Source: Candidatus Saccharimonadota bacterium
GTDB taxonomy: Bacteria > Patescibacteriota > Saccharimonadia > Saccharimonadales > Saccharimonadaceae
Reading direction: 5' to 3'
Assembly (NCBI GenBank): GCA_017511205.1
Contig: JAFWLE010000002.1
Location: forward strand, 62,001-126,000
DNA length: 64,000 nucleotides
In this document: one piece after another, positions 11,449 to 31,186 of the stretch
Numbering within the stretch: position 1 is the stretch's first letter
How the letters are laid out: the number at the start of each line of letters is the position of its first letter
Position numbers and translations under genes: made by a program
The notes under the pieces: model-generated
The model's database searches: none
Seen by the model: the letters and a program-made list of their open reading frames with translations, nothing else
What the model was told of the DNA's origin: nothing

Positions 11449-12539
11449 TTTTCCTCCTTCAAAAGAAATGGTTTAATGATTTCTCGCGCGGGCTCCAAGT
11501 CCTTTTTGCTATAATAAGTTGGCAAATTAATAATGTGTTCTGCTACGAATACGGCATTTTTACAAGTTTCTTCCGGAAAATGTACTTTTTTATAATATCT
11601 TTCCGGTGAAACTGGTTTTTCATACCAAAAACCAGCAAAATAGTAACCATTTTTCATAAGTTTTTTCAACACTACCTCGCGGTCCTCTATCAAATAATAT
11701 TCACGCAGTGGCGTTTCCCCAGATTTTTTCAAGCTCTTTAACTGTCTCAAAGCCAGTTTTGCTTCAAACTTGCTTGGGCGTCTGTTCAAATCTAATTTAT
11801 TGTCGGCCGATCTTTCCACCCAGTGGATTTTCACTAACAGACGCATCAAAGCTCCGCCCAGATGGATATAGGTAAGTCCACGGCAAATTGCTCCCAGTAA
11901 CGGATAAAATCTTGCTCTCAAATGATCGGACAGTTTCGGTAAATCGGTAGGCGCTTTAATCTCGTGTTTCTGAGGCGTTCTTAAAATCATTGCTCCACCC
12001 GAAATCGTATCAATTGATTTATCCTTGCCAAAAGAAAGTACCGCAGCTGCTCCTATCATACCACATTCTCGCCCATCGGGATACTTCACACCAGCACAAT
12101 GCGCCAGATCTTCGATAATGGTTAGATTATGTGCCTTTGCGAACTTCTCGATCGCTTTAATGTCTACCGGATTCCCCAAAGTGTTTTGAATGATAATTCC
12201 CTTAGCTGCTGAAATCGCCTCTAACGTTTCATTATTATAATTCAAATCCTTCGTTGAAATATCGGCAAATACTGGCACAAGCCCGGCGACTTTAACTGCT
12301 TCGAAGACCGCATAGCAGGTGAATCCGTTGATGATAATTCCGTCGCCTGGTTCGAAATACGCTTTGAGCGCCAGCGCTAGCGCTGAGCGTCCATTTTTAC
12401 ACAAAATCGCTTCGCCCTCGTATTTTTTTGCTAAAAAGTCCGTTAATTCTTCATAGTCTTTTTTTCGTCCCCACGAAAAAGTATGAGACAGACATTCTCC
12501 CCCAGAATAATTAGCTGCCATTCCGAGGAAATACTTCAC
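11445..12539 (-). CDS. DegT/DnrJ/EryC1-type PLP aminotransferase
   Basis: A 364-residue PLP-dependent protein of the DegT/StrS sugar-aminotransferase family. Visible features are the N-terminal ILCKNGRSALALALKAYFEPGDGIIINGFTCYAVFEAV, the cofactor-contact Asp-x-Ala-His in IIEDLAHCAG, and the probable Schiff-base Lys in LSFGKDKSIDTISGGA. The family makes amino sugars for surface glycans. Its place between a hydrolase and two Fem genes suggests a role in wall precursor or glycan modification. The start is GTG, overlapping the hydrolase stop by one base. Confidence 0.85.
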   Translation of the reverse strand: MKYFLGMAANYSGGECLSHTFSWGRKKDYEELTDFLAKKYEGEAILCKNGRSALALALKAYFEPGDGIIINGFTCYAVFEAVKVAGLVPVFADISTKDLNYNNETLEAISAAKGIIIQNTLGNPVDIKAIEKFAKAHNLTIIEDLAHCAGVKYPDGRECGMIGAAAVLSFGKDKSIDTISGGAMILRTPQKHEIKAPTDLPKLSDHLRARFYPLLGAICRGLTYIHLGGALMRLLVKIHWVERSADNKLDLNRRPSKFEAKLALRQLKSLKKSGETPLREYYLIEDREVVLKKLMKNGYYFAGFWYEKPVSPERYYKKVHFPEETCKNAVFVAEHIINLPTYYSKKDLEPAREIIKPFLLKEEK

Positions 12540-13216
12540 TATTTTAGCCTTTCCACCAGTGTCTTAAGTACTCTCGCTAGTTCATCTGGATTAGAAATAT
12601 AAGGCGCATGTGTCCAATTAGCGTAAAACTTCAGCTCCGCATTAGGTAGTTTTTCGTACATCTCAGTGGCTTGACGTGGCGGGGTAGTGGTATCTTTTTT
12701 GCCCCACAGAATAAAGGTTTTAGTATCAACCTTAGTAAGATCAAGCTCCTTATCTGATTCAATCATATTGGCCAAGGTCTTTTTCATGTTTTCAGGCGCG
12801 TGCGAATAATCCGTCGAGCCAGTGATTTTGTGGAAGGCCTTATCAATGATTTTGACCTTTTTTAGTGGTTTCCCAATCTTAGCGAGTCCAGCGACAATTT
12901 TTTTCTTCGTAGTTGGCTCATAAATGCCAGCCGCGTCTAACAAAATCAAATACTTCAGTTTATCCGGGTTTTTAGCACAAAGATTTAATAGAATCCTGCC
13001 GCCATTAGAGTGTCCCAGCGCTATCGCTCCATCCGGGATCTCATCATCGACCCAATCCACATAATCATCGATGGTGTATTCTTTATCAGAGGGTTCAGTT
13101 AAACCCGGCACACGTAACATCTTGACACTGATATCGGCATCACGCAGTAGCTCTACAGTGCGTTTCCACGGGCTTACTGTGTAGGTCCAGCCATGTACTA
13201 TATATAAATCTGCCAT
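12539..13216 (-). CDS. Alpha/beta hydrolase
   Basis: A 225-residue alpha/beta-hydrolase-fold enzyme. The nucleophile elbow is GHSNGG with Ser70; the acid is probably in LWGKKDTTTPP (about 174) and the base His in NWTHAPYISNP (about 202). There is no signal peptide, so it is cytoplasmic. The substrate is unknown; the operon context suggests an ester or amide linked to wall precursors. The SD is GGAGT, and the gene follows the MurF-like gene by 28 nt. Confidence 0.82.
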   Translation of the reverse strand: MADLYIVHGWTYTVSPWKRTVELLRDADISVKMLRVPGLTEPSDKEYTIDDYVDWVDDEIPDGAIALGHSNGGRILLNLCAKNPDKLKYLILLDAAGIYEPTTKKKIVAGLAKIGKPLKKVKIIDKAFHKITGSTDYSHAPENMKKTLANMIESDKELDLTKVDTKTFILWGKKDTTTPPRQATEMYEKLPNAELKFYANWTHAPYISNPDELARVLKTLVERLK

Positions 13217-19035: not shown

Positions 19036-19063
19036 TTGACATAGAAAAGAAAGATGCTAAAAT
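19036..19063 (+). promoter_or_regulatory. Promoter of the repeat adhesin gene
   Basis: TTGACA (19036-19041), 16-bp spacer, TAAAAT (19058-19063). Confidence 0.65.
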
Positions 19064-19109
19064 GATAAGCATAATAGGTTATACAAAAATAAACAAGGAA
19101 AACAAACAA

Positions 19110-21347
19110 ATGAGAAAACAATATCACAAGCTACTATATGCGCTAGTCCCGCTACTATCCATATGTGCTATTGCTATGGGTAATATTTTTGCCGCAAGCG
19201 AGCCATATAACATTGCCTACAGTGGCGGGAGCGAACTAAAAAATGTTGTAATTGAAAACGAAAGTTTAATCAATTCTTTTACTCCATTGGTAGCAAGGAG
19301 CGAAGGGGTTACTATAACGCCAACTGGTAACAAATGGATTGGAACTTCAAGTAGTAATAAGAGGTGGAAAAAACCTAACAGTACTGTTGGATGCGAATCT
19401 ACCTATGCCCTAGAGTTTAGTTATAATGATATAACTAATGTAATTAATCAAGGGTATAAAGTATCAGGTACTTATTACGATATGTATGTAACGTTTAAAG
19501 ACGTTAAGTTCAGTGGTTTTAGTAGTGCCGCCGACAAGAGCAAAAATTTTACAATTACTATTGTGCCTGGCAGTGCCACTCTTGGTGTAGGGTACCAATT
19601 ATATAACGATGCAGCATGTACTAATAAAGTAGGTGATTATACTCATCTAGACACTGAAGACACCTATAAGATATTTATTGAAACAGAGATTGTACTTAAA
19701 AAACGTAATCAAGCTACTAATTTTAGTGCAGAAGGAATCTACTTTAGGCTTTCGGATATAGATGCCGCACAATCTTACAAGATATTAAACTCCGGTAATG
19801 AATTAACCGCAAAAGATGGTAGTGGCAACGGTAAAATGTACGCAAAAAGTCTTTCAGCACTAAGCCCGAGCAGTGGCAGCCTAAAAAATATGTTTAACGA
19901 TGGGTATGTCTATTCTCAGTATAGCGGTGCAAATTACGTGAATTGCCAAGCAGATGAAACGAACGGGTGTACAGATGCTAATATCTATGTCCCTCTCACT
20001 ACTACTACTCAATCTAATGGCCTACAATTTGTCTTTGGTTTTGCTAACGCAGCTGGTAGCGGTATCGAATTTTTCGCCAAACAATTGAAGGTGAATTATG
20101 CCTCTGATACTAATGGCAGAATTACCGGTATAGTTTCAGAAGATGTTATTTCTGGTAGTCATCCAACTGGCTCCACCCAAGAACCAAGCACTGGCTACGA
20201 GTTTAAATGCTGGACTGCAGATGTTGACGTCACTTTGTCTAGTAATAACGCAGTGATTCCAAGTGGAAATTGTATGACTGATGCACAAGTAGAAGATGTA
20301 AAGATTTTGGAAGATACCACATTTACCGCCATACATCAAGCTATTCCAGCTCCAACTCAATTGACTGTAAATTATGCTTCAGATGGATATGGTAGGATTA
20401 CCGGTAAAACCACTGAAAGTGTTCAAGAAAATGGCAATCCAACTGGCTCCACTCAGGAACCAAATGACGGCTACAGATTTACCTGTTGGAAAGCTAACGT
20501 CGCTGTGACTTTAACAAGCGGTGAAAGCAAAGCTGCCAATACTTGCCTTACTGATGCAGAAGTGAAGAAGGTCATCGTTACTCAGGCTATTACCTTCACT
20601 GCATATCACGAGGCTATTCCAGTTCCAACTCAATTGACTGTAAATTATGCTTCAGATGGATATGGTAGGATTACCGGTAAAACCACTGAAAGTGTTCAAG
20701 AAAATGGTCAACCAACTGGTTCCACTCAGACTCCAAACGACGGCTACAGATTTACCTGTTGGAAAGCTAACGTCGCTGTGACTTTAACAAGCGGTGAAAG
20801 CAAAGCTGCCAATACTTGCCTTACTGATGCAGAAGTGAAGAAGGTCATCGTTACTCAGGCTATCACCTTCACTGCGTATCACGAAGCTATCCCAACCCCT
20901 ACTCCAACTCAATATAATGTAACCTATATATCTGATGAAAATGGCGAAATTACCGGTATTAATTCAGAAACTGTGGAAGAAAACAACAATCCATCTGGTT
21001 CTACTCAAAAACCAAATGATGGCTACGAATTTGTCTGTTGGGTAGCAAACGTTGCAGTTACTTTAACTGATGGCGAAACGAAAAAGGTTGATGATTGTCT
21101 TACCGATGCAGAAGTGAAGAAGGTTGTAGTAACCCAAGATATCGAGTTTACCGCACTTCACTTGGCTATTCCAGCTGATGAAGAGCCAGAAGAAGAGTCT
21201 TATCCTATGGCTACACCAGAAACTGGTGCTAGCACCGGAGAAATCAACGCCGTAGTTCTGCCTGTTTCTGTCCTTAGTATTATAAGCGTAGTCATCATCT
21301 CAATTTTGCCACGCTTATTCCATAAAAAAGTAAGCTTCAAAAAATAG
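19110..21347 (+). CDS. Repeat-containing surface protein with sorting-like C-terminus
   Basis: A 745-residue predicted adhesin. The start at 19110 (MRKQYHKLLYALVPLLSICAIAMGNIFAAS) gives a clean signal peptide, and the longer frame runs into the promoter. The N-terminal ~300 residues are unrecognised. Four tandem repeats of about 93 residues follow (from 20092, 20353, 20632 and 20917 on the DNA), each reading like VNYASDGYGRITG ... GSTQEPNDGYRFTCWKANVAVTL ... CLTDAEVKKVIVTQAITFTA. Each has a conserved Cys pair. The C-terminus has TPETGA, a 20-residue membrane segment and KKVSFKK, the layout of an LPxTG-like sorting signal. No sortase is in the window. It is flanked by two paralogous lipoproteins on the other strand. 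Confidence 0.75.
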   Translation: MRKQYHKLLYALVPLLSICAIAMGNIFAASEPYNIAYSGGSELKNVVIENESLINSFTPLVARSEGVTITPTGNKWIGTSSSNKRWKKPNSTVGCESTYALEFSYNDITNVINQGYKVSGTYYDMYVTFKDVKFSGFSSAADKSKNFTITIVPGSATLGVGYQLYNDAACTNKVGDYTHLDTEDTYKIFIETEIVLKKRNQATNFSAEGIYFRLSDIDAAQSYKILNSGNELTAKDGSGNGKMYAKSLSALSPSSGSLKNMFNDGYVYSQYSGANYVNCQADETNGCTDANIYVPLTTTTQSNGLQFVFGFANAAGSGIEFFAKQLKVNYASDTNGRITGIVSEDVISGSHPTGSTQEPSTGYEFKCWTADVDVTLSSNNAVIPSGNCMTDAQVEDVKILEDTTFTAIHQAIPAPTQLTVNYASDGYGRITGKTTESVQENGNPTGSTQEPNDGYRFTCWKANVAVTLTSGESKAANTCLTDAEVKKVIVTQAITFTAYHEAIPVPTQLTVNYASDGYGRITGKTTESVQENGQPTGSTQTPNDGYRFTCWKANVAVTLTSGESKAANTCLTDAEVKKVIVTQAITFTAYHEAIPTPTPTQYNVTYISDENGEITGINSETVEENNNPSGSTQKPNDGYEFVCWVANVAVTLTDGETKKVDDCLTDAEVKKVVVTQDIEFTALHLAIPADEEPEEESYPMATPETGASTGEINAVVLPVSVLSIISVVIISILPRLFHKKVSFKK
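20344..20901 (+). repeat. Two near-identical 279-bp tandem repeats within the adhesin gene
   Basis: Units 20344-20622 and 20623-20901 differ at only a few bases; the outer two repeat units of the gene are more diverged. Such identity implies recent duplication or gene conversion, so copy number may vary between strains. Confidence 0.8.
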
Positions 21348-21452: not shown

Positions 21453-22136
21453 TTAGCCCTCTTCGAGAGCCAATTCGGCTAGCTTGCTAAAGGTCAAATC
21501 CTCCTCTATTTCAACAAGCTTTGTTCTCCGTATTTCTATTTGATCAATACCGAGTGGGTTACCTTTCTCGTCCTTCATCCCAATGGCTGGGCCTTCAGCG
21601 AAAAAGATTTTACCCTCAGTGACATAATCCCACTGGCCATCACCAGAGAGATCGCAAACGCTGAAAATCCTCCTTTCCCTGTCTACGATATTTTGCCACT
21701 TTATTATTACTCCGGTAACCTCTAAAGATTTACCGTTTTTATGGGCTTCAACTACGGGCTTTGAGGATGCCAACACTAAAATAGCGTCCCCTGAAATCAT
21801 TTTACGCCATACATCATTGATGTAAAAAAGCTCGTTACCATAGGAGTCCTCCAAGAGAATTGTTTCCCCATTAGGGGTTTCCAATCTAAAACCTATGCTG
21901 AAAGGTGTTCGCCTTTCTAGGGTTTTTTCTATCAGGATCCTAGCGGTATCCGTAGAGTTCCAGAAGAGTTCATCCGAGCTTTCTGCTCTAATCTCCTCCA
22001 GTTCACTCTCGACCTCATATGCGGTGTCGGAAAGGTCATTAGTGACCCTTGACTCCGTTGTTCCGTTGTTACATCCAGTAAGAATAACCATTACGGCTAA
22101 CATAGTGATAACTAAAAAAACCATTCCTTTTCTCAT
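21453..22136 (-). CDS. Predicted lipoprotein, paralogue 2
   Basis: A 227-residue predicted lipoprotein: MRKGMVFLVITMLAVMVILTGC is a signal sequence with lipobox LTGC (Cys22). The mature part aligns along its length with the protein at 18235-18903, including the GDGQWDYVTEGKIFF block. It is transcribed alone from TTTACT-17-TATAAT (about 22277-22305) with a long leader of about 135 nt. The two paralogues bracket the adhesin gene, which suggests that the three act together at the surface, although the lipoproteins are transcribed on the opposite strand. Confidence 0.75.
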   Translation of the reverse strand: MRKGMVFLVITMLAVMVILTGCNNGTTESRVTNDLSDTAYEVESELEEIRAESSDELFWNSTDTARILIEKTLERRTPFSIGFRLETPNGETILLEDSYGNELFYINDVWRKMISGDAILVLASSKPVVEAHKNGKSLEVTGVIIKWQNIVDRERRIFSVCDLSGDGQWDYVTEGKIFFAEGPAIGMKDEKGNPLGIDQIEIRRTKLVEIEEDLTFSKLAELALEEG

Positions 22137-22350
22137 TTTCCTTCTCCTTTGATTCCTCTACATTTTTACGTTCATTTATCTACAATCCTGCCATGTTAGG
22201 ATAAAAGTGAATTCAGGGCATATTACAGCCAGCCAGTTTTAACCTTCGATCTATGTAAAACACAGATATACTCTATATTATAGCATACTTTTGACAAAAA
22301 GTAAAGTATAAGCCTTAAATCTTTAAGTTTCATAAATAATTAGAAATAAA

Positions 22351-22847: not shown

Positions 22848-22865
22848 GTTGGAGGAGCCATTTTT

Positions 22866-22895
22866 ATAAAAAAAGCCCTGAATAAAATTCAGGGG
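22866..22895 (-). terminator. Terminator of the csx3-like transcript
   Basis: Minus strand CCCTGAAT-TTT-ATTCAGGG followed by CTTTTTTT. Confidence 0.92.
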
Positions 22896-23050
22896 GTTAT
22901 TGGTTACCGTCCCTTATGGTTTTAATGCCCGTAAGTACATTACTTCGGCCGAGGCCGAAGGGTTATAGGTCACCGCCCCCTGCAAAATGCAGGCGATCCT
23001 CAATGGAGGCTGTATTCAATTGTTATGGCCGAGGGCCGGCGGCTACAGGA
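22896..23050 (-). other. Structured 3' region of the csx3-like transcript
   Basis: About 150 nt between the stop codon and the terminator fold into several hairpins, including CTTCGGCC/GGCCGAAG and CCTGCA/TGCAGG. A hairpin (CTACAGGA / TCCTGTAG) contains the last codons and the TAG stop itself. Two similar stretches, GCGGTGACCTATAACCC and ACGGTAACCAATAACCC, occur in the same orientation. It may be a stabilising 3' end or a processed small RNA. Confidence 0.5.
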
Positions 23051-23351
23051 GGTCTCCCGTCCTGTAGTCGGCACTGTGTGACACCGCGACTACATAGTGT
23101 CCGAGCTTAGGGTCAAAGACCGCTACAGCTGGGCATATATGCAGCAACGCATGTGCCAGAACAAATGCCACCGGCAGGGAGGCCGGTCCGTTGAGCAGGC
23201 AGGTTTTACCCATTACCTGCTGCGAGACAGCTTCGATCGCCTTCTCGGCGTCTTTGACTATCTCGTCGTTTCCTGCAGGCTCGCCAAAGCCTATCTTGAG
23301 AGTTACAGTTGATTCTGTGGTTTCTGCTACGCTGACATTGTACTTTGCCAT
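23043..23351 (-). CDS. csx3-like: Csx3-like protein (CRISPR ring-nuclease family) without a CRISPR locus
   Basis: A 102-residue protein whose C-terminal half matches the Csx3 pattern: a GPASLPVAFVLAHALLH helix, then the strand and turn VAVFDPKLGHYVVAVSHSADYRTGDLL. In Csx3, known as a cyclic tetra-adenylate (cA4) ring nuclease (Crn3), conserved His, Asp, Arg/Lys and His residues serve catalysis or binding. Counterparts here are His71, Asp80, Lys82 and His92, and the His-to-Asp spacing of nine agrees with what I recall of the family. The N-terminal ~40 residues are less typical. Base composition is visibly more GC-rich than the neighbours, suggesting transfer. No cas gene or array is in the window. 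It shares its promoter module and operator with the giant RNA at 30106-31151. Confidence 0.68.
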   Translation of the reverse strand: MAKYNVSVAETTESTVTLKIGFGEPAGNDEIVKDAEKAIEAVSQQVMGKTCLLNGPASLPVAFVLAHALLHICPAVAVFDPKLGHYVVAVSHSADYRTGDLL

Positions 23352-23408: not shown

Positions 23409-23437
23409 AGTATACAATATTCTTGACAAAAAGTAAA
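23409..23437 (-). promoter_or_regulatory. Promoter of the csx3-like gene (shared module, copy 1)
   Basis: Minus strand TTTACT (23432-23437), 17-bp spacer, TATACT (23409-23414). The stretch from 23401 to about 23440 is nearly identical to the promoter of the giant RNA. Confidence 0.8.
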
Positions 23438-28636: not shown

Positions 28637-28951
28637 TTACGCCATAAAGTATTCATCACAAGAACAGACAACGTCATGTTCTGTGAGCCAGCCTTTTTCA
28701 AGACTATCATACAATAGGCTAAAGACGTTAATGTCAAGGCTGTAGTTTCCATCTATGAAGGGGGTAATCTCCCATAGATCATCTTCCCAACCTTTGGTGG
28801 AAAGACTCTTGTCTATGTAGATCACCACTCCATTTGGATAGAAAACTGCATAATGGAACCCAACATCACTGGAGTGCCTCTCTTCCCAAGAAACAGCTGC
28901 ACGAGTGATATGAGCCCAAGCTTTTTCTGATAGTGGAGAAAAGTTCATCAT
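28637..28951 (-). CDS. Orphan protein, about 104 residues, under the shared operator
   Basis: I do not recognise this protein. The sequence MMNFSPLSEKAWAHITRAAVSWEERHSSDVGFHYAVFYPNGVVIYIDKSLSTKGWEDDLWEITPFIDGNYSLDINVFSLLYDSLEKGWLTEHDVVCSCDEYFMA looks like a small alpha/beta cytosolic protein. The ATG at 28951 has an SD-like AGAAGGG eight bases upstream; a GTG at 28981 is an in-frame alternative adding ten basic residues. The promoter (29116-29144) is copy 2 of the module shared with the csx3-like gene and the giant RNA, so it is probably in the same regulon. The leader is about 160 nt. Confidence 0.6.
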   Translation of the reverse strand: MMNFSPLSEKAWAHITRAAVSWEERHSSDVGFHYAVFYPNGVVIYIDKSLSTKGWEDDLWEITPFIDGNYSLDINVFSLLYDSLEKGWLTEHDVVCSCDEYFMA

Positions 28952-29115
28952 ATTGATGACCCTTCTAACCGTGGCCTTCACGCTTAAGCGTTTATAACCA
29001 TGAAAGCGGCACCCAGCTTCGTTTGGAAGTGGGCGGAACCTCGCGGGCCCTTCTCATCTCTATTCATCCTCCATTTCTTAAATAACTAGTTTGCGTCCCC
29101 CGCAAACTTGATACA

Positions 29116-29144
29116 ATTATATAATAATATTGACAAAAAGTAAA
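29116..29144 (-). promoter_or_regulatory. Promoter of the 28637 gene (shared module, copy 2)
   Basis: Minus strand TTTACT (29139-29144), 17-bp spacer, TATAAT (29116-29121). It aligns without gaps with the modules at 23401 and 31150 up to the operator. The surrounding intergenic stretch (28952-29306) holds only this module, the leader and the trmB promoter. Confidence 0.78.
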
Positions 29145-29194
29145 TATAATATCAATAACCCAAAAAAATAACAGGGACAAAAACAAAATAAAAA

Positions 29195-29306: not shown

Positions 29307-30098
29307 ATGGAAGAAACGGATATTCTTAAAAAAGCAGGGCTAAACGAAGCTCAAGCGGCTATTTATTACAGTTTGCTCAAAAATGGTGCCATGTCGCCAG
29401 CGGAGCTAGCAACCGAAACTGGCCAGTCAAGAGAAAATTGTTACGCCGTGGCCAAAAAACTAGTAGAGCTAGGTTTAATCGAACAAACAGATAGCAAAAA
29501 AGCTAGATACCGAGTTTTGAATCCTAGTAGCCTAGAGGTTTTAGCCGAAAAACGCCGTAAAGTCATGGCCAAAAATGAAAAACTCGTCAAAGATAATATT
29601 TCGGCGCTTCTTGATATTTTTTATGCTAATAACGAGATGCCCGGAGCTAGAACTCTGGAAGGTATAGAGGGTCTAGAAGAAGTTTATAAAGACATGTTGA
29701 GAGTCAAAAAAGATGTTTATTATTTGCGTACTGATGCAGACGAAGGCTTTTGGCATGATACTGAAGAACACTATGATTTTTTGGAGAAATATCGTGAACA
29801 AAGGTCTATTCTTGGCATACGCACTTATGCTTTGACGCCAGCTACAAAGAGAGCGGTAAAACATGCTCGTGCAGGTAGCGATAACGCCTGGAATTTTGAT
29901 CGAACTTGGATGCCGGTCGGAGATTACACCGCTCCAGCAGAAATGTGGGCTTACGGTGACAAAGCTGCCTTTTGCACTTACGGTGAAACTCAAATTTCTA
30001 CTCTCATTACTAGCCCCGCCATCGCCGAGGCCATTCGCCAAGTCATAAAACTTCTAAAGAACTTTTATCAGAAGAATTTCCCCCAGGAACAGAAATAA
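29307..30098 (+). CDS. TrmB-family transcriptional regulator
   Basis: A 263-residue regulator. Residues 1-70 form a winged helix-turn-helix (LKKAGLNEAQAAIYYSLLKNGAMSPAELATETGQSRENCYAVAKKLVELGLIEQTDSKKARYRVLNPSSL), the family hallmark, followed by a coiled-coil (AEKRRKVMAKNEKLVKDNISALLDI) and a ligand/regulatory domain starting ARTLEGIEGLEEVYKDML. TrmB proteins of archaea and some bacteria sense sugars or other small molecules. It lies directly between two of the three TGTAAA-N7-TTTACA operators, so it is the best candidate for the factor that binds them, including its own upstream region. This link is inference. Confidence 0.85.
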   Translation: MEETDILKKAGLNEAQAAIYYSLLKNGAMSPAELATETGQSRENCYAVAKKLVELGLIEQTDSKKARYRVLNPSSLEVLAEKRRKVMAKNEKLVKDNISALLDIFYANNEMPGARTLEGIEGLEEVYKDMLRVKKDVYYLRTDADEGFWHDTEEHYDFLEKYREQRSILGIRTYALTPATKRAVKHARAGSDNAWNFDRTWMPVGDYTAPAEMWAYGDKAAFCTYGETQISTLITSPAIAEAIRQVIKLLKNFYQKNFPQEQK

Positions 30099-30105
30099 TC
30101 ATACG

Positions 30106-31151
30106 AAAAAGACGGACTGATCTGTCCGCCTTTCAAGATTAAACGTGCTAGGAAGATTTTGGCTTGGGGCCATACTTCCAATGCTCTTCGTCCGTTCCTT
30201 ATCGTATCCCTACGGTTTGGCAACGGAGACGTTTTGTTGCTGTTGAGCCATGAGCACTCTAAGCTAAGTCTCGCATTTTCAAACGGCTGGCCGGCCGCCC
30301 TACTCATACTCCTTCAACCAGAGTTTTGCTACGCCCACGCGTACTTTTGTGGAAACCCCTAAGGGTGCCGTACGCGAACCGAGTTAAATATGACCAGCGG
30401 AAGCTCCGCCGACTGACCCGAAGGCCAGAGATAGAAATCTTTCGATAACTATTACTCCATATTTATCAAACGAGGTTTCCTCGTCGCCACCCGGTACCAC
30501 TCACCTCTTGCCCATTGGCAAGCCTCTGAGGCACCTTTTATCACTTCAGTGATAAAAGCCAGAGTCAAACTTTGAGAAGCTTCTCTTTACCTTTGGAGCA
30601 AAGAGAGCGCGACGCCATGCAACAGTGTTGAGGTGGATTGCGGTCCAGCTCAGCTTATTACCTTATCTCCTTCTATAAAACGCCAAAGGCGTCACCCACT
30701 TGGGTGTAGAAAGCCGTCACCGTGTCTCGTTCTTAGATTTGTGTGCTGTACAACATAAACGATCCTTTTTCTGAATCGTTACAAAACGTTCATACTACGC
30801 AGATCTTACGATTCCCTTTCGGGATTCGCATGAATAGCTATTACTAGCCATTCTCAATACTTACTATCTTACACGGAGGCAATTCTGCTCTTGATAGCTT
30901 TCTTGTTTCTAGTTGCATTTGCAACCATCTGCGCATCCAGCCAAGGCGAGGGTCATATCTCACCTTTACAACTGGTTTAGCATGTTCAAAATCGCCACCA
31001 AAAGCAAGCTTAAGGCGGCGCATCAACGAAATACTGCTTCATAATTTCGTTGATATGCCGTCTCAAACTCCTGCCCGCAGATAATTAATTAATTCTGCGA
31101 AGTGTTTTAGATTTTTTAATTTACCGTTGCTCGGTCTCAACTTTCGCAACT
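30106..31151 (-). ncRNA. Giant structured non-coding RNA, about 1,046 nt
   Basis: A stretch with no credible gene, having its own promoter (31158-31186) and a Rho-independent terminator (GGCGGAC / GTCCGTC then TTTTT, 30106-30130). It folds into many local helices: an 11-bp hairpin (31022-31054), CGCAGA/TCTGCG (31076-31099), a 10-bp hairpin (30535-30558), a three-way junction (30669-30713), a 7-bp CGCGTAC/GTACGCG stem (30338-30376), and stems capped by GAAA (30813-30824) and UUCG (30413-30428) tetraloops. The size and ornateness resemble large bacterial RNAs such as GOLLD, ROOL or OLE. I recognise no RNase P, tmRNA, rRNA or intron signature and cannot assign a family. Confidence 0.82.
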
Positions 31152-31157
31152 GTCCTA

Positions 31158-31186
31158 AGTATATAATATTCTTGACAAAAAGTAAA
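31158..31186 (-). promoter_or_regulatory. Promoter of the giant RNA (shared module, copy 3)
   Basis: Minus strand TTTACT (31181-31186), 17-bp spacer, TATACT (31158-31163). The bases around the start (CTGTCCTAAGTATA on the plus strand) are the same as in the csx3-like promoter. Confidence 0.82.

Follow-up and report, generated by a model that had tools for sequence, protein, structure and literature searches.

A Csx3-fold protein gene in a genome with no detectable type III CRISPR shares a rare promoter motif with a large structured RNA

Csx3 is usually described as an accessory protein of CRISPR (clustered regularly interspaced short palindromic repeats) systems that resets signalling by cyclic tetra-adenylate (cA4). 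Crn3 ring nucleases cleave cA4 in a Mn-dependent way as head-to-tail dimers. For Csx3/Crn3 of Archaeoglobus fulgidus (AfCsx3, AF1864; PDB 3wzg and 6yud), the accessible sections of PMC7371418 list H60 and D69 as essential residues, H57 and H80 as conserved without exception, and R46 and R71 as those that touch cA4. According to the same sections, AfCsx3 was initially reported to be an RNA deadenylase, and its affinity for RNA is about 100-fold lower than for cA4; an RNA-bound structure of AfCsx3 was also among our fold matches. Fusions of Csx3 to kinase or AAA domains appear in the accessible text of PMC7371418 and PMC9676260. A Csx3 domain has been placed in a MoxR-vWA ternary conflict system of Leptolyngbya (Kaur et al. 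2020, PMC7159879, accessible portion), and thus Csx3 outside CRISPR is not wholly new. Here, we describe a csx3-like gene in a 64,000-nucleotide stretch of a Candidatus Saccharimonadota genome (assembly GCA_017511205.1, contig JAFWLE010000002.1, positions 62,001 to 126,000, forward strand), hereafter the window. The gene product has the Csx3 fold and the catalytic histidines and aspartate, and the host genome (G000; 796 kb, 97% complete, placed in Patescibacteria by its phylum mates) has no detectable type III CRISPR. Copies of one rare promoter precede the gene, a large structured RNA and a small open reading frame (ORF), a TrmB-like regulator gene lies nearby, and the set is kept in a second species.

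The csx3 gene (window positions 23043-23351, minus strand) encodes 102 amino acids plus a stop codon, and its ATG start is preceded by a GAGGAGG-type ribosome site. The product carries H67, H71, D80, K82 and H92; the motif and the last four of these residues had been read from the DNA in an initial annotation and were indeed present in this ORF. Pfam Cas_csx3 (PF09620), which matches once in G000, scored 28.2 bits on the window protein against a cut-off of 21, PADLOC Csx3-AAA scored 59.4 bits, and NCBIfam Csx3 (TIGR02579), with 32 bits, fell short of the 55.4 bits set as its equivalog cut-off. The best sequence match in the PDB was to AfCsx3 chains, with an E value of 0.0023. The AlphaFold2 model, built with 26 aligned rows, had a predicted local distance difference test (pLDDT) score of 96.4. 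AfCsx3 was the top fold match by Foldseek (E of 1.3e-6, template modelling score of 0.70) and the top structural match to the model (Z of 12.3, root mean square deviation of 1.7 Å over 91 residues), followed by part of Cat1 (Z of 9.7). The fold is therefore not one unrelated to Csx3, and the family assignment proposed earlier holds at the level of fold and by Pfam. The viral structure library returned no match to this fold at E <= 0.001. Matches of the N-terminal half to acetaldehyde dehydrogenase fell below the cut-off and were dropped.

A second species of the genus (G531) has an orthologue with 79 of 102 residues identical and no insertions or deletions. Between the two genes, the proportion of nonsynonymous differences (pN) was 0.17 and that of synonymous differences (pS) was 0.79 (saturated), and the differences fell 20/15/63 on the three codon positions. 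Because of this orthologue and this distribution, csx3 is more than a chance ORF, and the pattern of substitution shows a gene held by purifying selection. The G+C fraction was 0.54 in the window gene and 0.52 in G531, against 0.41 for the window overall, which bears out the atypical composition noted earlier. We conclude that this is a real gene for a Csx3-domain protein of a separate subfamily (NGPxSxP...DPK), which confirms the earlier observation of a Csx3-like gene as a whole. The gene is patchily distributed: it was found in none of the 59 others in a sample of 60 relatives, which missed G531, and when 60 genus genomes were searched at the DNA level, one of the 59 others, namely G531, carried it. 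PF09620 matched in 10 of 379 genomes of the phylum sample. Immediately downstream of the gene, positions 22961-23042 (minus strand) are included in the 74% alignment with G531, which raises the possibility of a conserved element in the 3' region of csx3. A likely terminator, predicted from a hairpin followed by a T run, lies at 22863-22896 on the same strand.

The host genome was searched for the components of a type III system. Cas10 palm domain, RAMP and Cas1 profiles had no match anywhere in G000, and the positive controls for the RAMP, Cas1 and Cas10 palm searches matched in 4, 9 and 5 of 14, respectively. A simple script found no CRISPR-like array in the window. The initial statement that no CRISPR system lies nearby is thus supported, and a type III locus elsewhere in the genome that could explain the gene was not found by these searches.

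The active site was compared with that of AfCsx3 through the PDB sequence alignment, with a fixed offset of six residues between chain positions and the published numbering. H57, H60, D69 and H80 of AfCsx3 correspond to H67, H71, D80 and H92 of the window protein, the residues expected of a Crn3 enzyme. However, the cA4-contacting residues R46 and R71 correspond to P56 and K82, respectively. Across the 26 aligned rows, D80, K82 and H92 were invariant, H67 was absent only in two viral rows (L089 and L090), H71 was absent only in L090, and the P56 position was occupied by alanine in L089 and arginine in L087. The arginine contacts are lost across the entire subfamily, including its members in type III loci, whereas the metal face and D80 are retained. 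With proline and lysine in place of the arginines, the protein probably has a ligand other than cA4 or holds it in another way. The protein may work like Crn3, but the two altered arginines and the missed equivalog cut-off make the label of Crn3 cA4 ring nuclease premature; given these and the lack of a CRISPR link, we did not file it as Crn3.

The sequence TTTACTTTTTGTCAA occurs four times in the window, always on the minus strand and within 9 kb, against an expectation of 0.04. It was found nowhere else in G000 at up to one mismatch, and the reversed control motif also gave no match. All four copies sit in a -35/-10 frame, before csx3, a 114-aa ORF, the large RNA and a lipoprotein ORF, which bears out the earlier point that csx3 and a large RNA have their promoter in common. 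The putative csx3 promoter (23409-23437, minus strand) consists of TTTACT, a 17-base spacer with TTTTGTCAA, and TATACT. The putative RNA promoter lies at 31158-31186 and that of the 114-aa ORF at 29116-29144, both on the minus strand, the latter divergent from the TrmB gene. In G531, the motif precedes csx3 with one mismatch and is exact before both the RNA and the homologous 105-aa ORF. G403 also has an exact copy before its homologous ORF (102 aa), which adjoins TrmB. The fourth window copy (22277-22305, minus strand), before the lipoprotein ORF (21453-22136), was not found before the G531 homologue. No family in Pfam or PADLOC matched the 114-aa ORF (28637-28981, minus strand). Its leader and start, typical of this ORF family (window 28936-29158), recur in G000 contig C2 (positions 512-639, L110), G404, G403 and G531; the copies in contig C2 and G404 have no motif within two mismatches.

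The RNA under this motif is about 1.04 kb long (30105-31151, minus strand), with its ends estimated from the promoter and a terminator-like hairpin. Homologues were found in G531 (75%) and G370 (69%), the latter near gyrA. None of the 59 other genus genomes except G531 contained it, and 101 genomes of the family gave no further convincing match, that in G496 covering 30 bases. RNAalifold predicted 290 pairs on the three sequences, and 95.1% of the cells paired in a separate count, a figure favoured by the derivation of the structure from the same alignment. Changes on both sides occurred in 81 of the 290 pairs, compared to 34 in shuffles and 9-13 with partners slid, an excess that is large even though only three sequences were available. 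By this comparison, the RNA is structured. It resembles the large ornate RNAs GOLLD, ROOL and OLE, as far as the accessible accounts of these describe them, in size class and extensive conserved folding. In contrast to them, it had no Rfam match at the gathering threshold; four relaxed-threshold matches in the region (15.8-19.7 bits) were far below their cut-offs and were taken as chance. The viral contigs had no match to a 24-mer conserved in the RNA.

Six kilobases from csx3 lies a gene for a 263-aa TrmB-like helix-turn-helix regulator (29307-30098, plus strand; Pfam TrmB 49.2 bits, cut-off 25.6), which is the sole TrmB match in G000. Judged from its position only, this protein may bind the shared motif. 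G531 carries a rearranged version of the region, with csx3 at 12528-12836 and TrmB at 8055-8843 of L107 and with the large RNA present. In five of ten csx3-bearing genomes, TrmB and csx3 genes are divergent and at most about 6 kb apart, compared to 0.34 expected (P of 5e-6; genome sizes were rounded and TrmB was the only gene class so tested). The TrmB-csx3 pairs in L077 and L086 are divergent like the five near pairs. Several of the ten genomes carry Csx3 architectures unlike the window gene, and the association is therefore with the domain family. Furthermore, TrmB in G531 and G403 is followed by a protein with an FVKNR domain and an extra C-terminal part (L107 7011-8054, minus strand; L108 1762-2856, plus strand). 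Its N-terminal domain matches the FVKNR protein of the csx3 modules in L018, L027 and L077 (E of 1e-21 to 1e-26), which makes it a second gene tying this region to the csx3 modules. The protein had no Pfam family above cut-off, and we claim no fold for the FVKNR domain, as its AlphaFold2 model from two rows had a pLDDT of 35. A 2H phosphoesterase assignment for the C-terminal part, suggested by two HxT-like motifs, was dropped after Pfam gave nothing.

Relatives of the window protein were reached with a two-row alignment (A1) used as a profile, since the protein alone as query found none in the species-genome or viral contigs. The profile search returned 62 loci in species genomes and 4 viral loci, and tblastn added 13 plasmid records, of which 5 were examined; INPHARED phages gave no relative by tblastn. 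Of 57 cyanobacterial loci, 52 in genomes and 5 on plasmids, 52 had type III genes as marked by profiles iterated from annotated cyanobacterial cas genes, the exceptions being L032, L057, L059, L076 and L087. TrmB, MoxR, vWA and FVKNR queries matched in none of these 57. The small Csx3 of the cyanobacterial type III loci belongs to the same subfamily, is about 45-58% identical and has the same residues at 11 checked positions bar a few; it adjoins Csx3', a Csx3 fused to a P-loop/AAA domain. The window gene differs in having no type III locus. Among the ten non-cyanobacterial genome loci, a P-loop gene was present in eight, type III genes in two (L034 and L071) and MoxR together with vWA in three (L027, L033 and L077); G050 (L018) was a fourth case of the latter kind. 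The MoxR of L077, the only one scanned, is Pfam bpMoxR. In Patescibacteria and other candidate phyla, csx3 mostly stands beside a P-loop gene, in some cases with TrmB-like or MoxR-vWA genes, and usually without cas genes. This setting outside cas loci is shared with the Csx3 of the MoxR-vWA systems in the accessible part of Kaur et al. (2020); unlike those, the window csx3 stands alone with TrmB and the large RNA, and queries from the csx3 modules found no MoxR or vWA in the window. One Patescibacteria locus (L026, G101:C15) has a classical-looking Csx3 (SGRGPxWL, DPRLG) and a RAMP gene on one 8-kb contig, with no Cas10 palm match. By eye, radical-SAM-looking ORFs with CxxxCxxC-like motifs accompany csx3 in one locus of Patescibacteria and on three viral contigs (L019 4645-5685, L092 11059-11940, L121 4010-4948 and L122 3347-4198).

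We give something approaching an even chance to the reading that the csx3 product, predicted to be a phosphodiesterase or to bind a ligand, belongs to a non-CRISPR circuit linked to TrmB. Like a Csx3 enzyme, the protein would act as a metal-dependent phosphodiesterase, its dimers holding a small oligonucleotide, cyclic or linear, between them. This ligand would be cleared or buffered in a stress or conflict circuit, which would be kin to the P-loop/MoxR-vWA modules bearing csx3 relatives in other candidate phyla. In favour of this reading stand the fold and catalytic residues, the selection on the gene, the lack of Cas10, RAMP and Cas1 matches in G000, the motif copies in G531, the closeness of TrmB to csx3 in five of ten genomes, the recurring FVKNR protein and the gene setting of the non-cyanobacterial relatives. 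A more specific form, possible but doubtful, is a nucleotide-signalling circuit in Saccharibacteria-like episymbionts in which the phosphodiesterase and the undescribed RNA are switched on together under TrmB control, the RNA either generating the signal taken away by the protein or responding to it. Several observations weigh against the circuit. The two cA4-contact arginines are replaced, and since relatives within type III loci show the same changes, these alone are no mark of a non-CRISPR role. Neither the P-loop partner gene nor the FVKNR protein was found in G000, and G370 has the RNA with no csx3 match in the phylum-sample search. TrmB genes occur in nine of the ten csx3-bearing genomes anyway, the 6.5-kb distance used in the TrmB test was picked post hoc, and in G531 the TrmB and csx3 genes lie on the same strand. 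The initial annotation had offered a cyclic-nucleotide role outside CRISPR, anti-defence and RNA binding; its points on family, type III, G+C content and the RNA-shared promoter stood, which supports its interpretation in part.

An alternative, which we consider unlikely, is that csx3 is a viral or mobile-element gene for counter-defence that destroys or sequesters oligonucleotide alarm signals of the bacterium or its host cell. A wider alignment (A3) found relatives in eight viral loci on eight IMG/VR contigs of 22-156 kb (L115-L122), representing seven distinct proteins because the matched parts of L117 and L118 do not differ. Among the contigs scanned for viral genes, L090 and L092 carry a phage portal gene and further phage genes, and one protein of L089 is Erf-like. 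In a tree of 32 rows, for which 2 of 28 unique small Csx3 rows (L038 and the second L078 row) had been excluded before alignment A3, the window pair grouped with candidate-phylum rows and one viral row, and this viral row, L089, adjoined the pair with a support of 94/79. The split from the mostly cyanobacterial side, which included L028, L071 and L077, had a support of 93/90, below the starred level. The high G+C content and patchy occurrence of csx3 also fit a mobile gene. However, two species retain csx3 together with its promoter, regulator and RNA, the genome has no type III target, and the ORFs around it matched no Pfam or PADLOC family (PHROGs were not run on them). The context in relatives likewise favours a non-CRISPR module over pure anti-defence. 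In the accessible part of a survey of ring nucleases in 28,114 phage genomes (PMC12409355), AcrIII-1, Csx20 and Csx16 are listed and Crn3 is not. Our literature search, with most subscription papers beyond its reach, returned no paper on Csx3 in Patescibacteria or phages. In L090 (7448-7861) and L092 (7475-7903), an ORF on the minus strand sits next to the phage csx3 in opposite orientation, and its GLIISCGRIPYWLA stretch resembles the other Csx3 type by eye.

The promoter shared by csx3 and the RNA in two species also suits an RNA binder or deadenylase acting on this RNA, as does the original description of AfCsx3 as a deadenylase with an RNA-bound structure. The much weaker binding of AfCsx3 to RNA than to cA4 argues otherwise, as do the presence of the RNA in G370 with no csx3 match and the fact that most relatives have no such RNA known, and we regard this function as quite unlikely. 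A non-catalytic sensor, which would bind a nucleotide in a STAS-like fold and relay its state to a partner, is improbable. The fold resembles STAS anti-sigma antagonists at a Z of about 5, which may reflect a common arrangement only. Three viral copies (L117, L118 and L119) lack both H67 and H71 equivalents but keep D80, K82 and H92, and could by their residues bind a ligand without cutting it; L115 lacks H67. The window protein, however, like nearly all cellular relatives, retains every catalytic-face residue. That the gene is the decaying remnant of a CRISPR locus, lost or foreign, which high G+C, missing partner genes and patchy occurrence might suggest, is already disfavoured and scarcely credible given the low pN relative to pS, the lack of insertions or deletions, the high G+C in both species and the kept promoter.

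Elsewhere in the window, a large surface-protein-like ORF (19062-21347) holds a 273-base tandem repeat (20338-20894) in two copies at 95%.

A Csx3 subfamily that has the catalytic residues but altered ligand contacts, and that occurs outside CRISPR in ultrasmall bacteria and on viral contigs, would point to another bacterial nucleotide signal or to ring nucleases reused as regulators or in counter-defence. The pairing of csx3 with a conserved RNA under one promoter across species makes the question directly testable. These data suggest that the Csx3 family has a further role outside CRISPR, in a stress or defence circuit.
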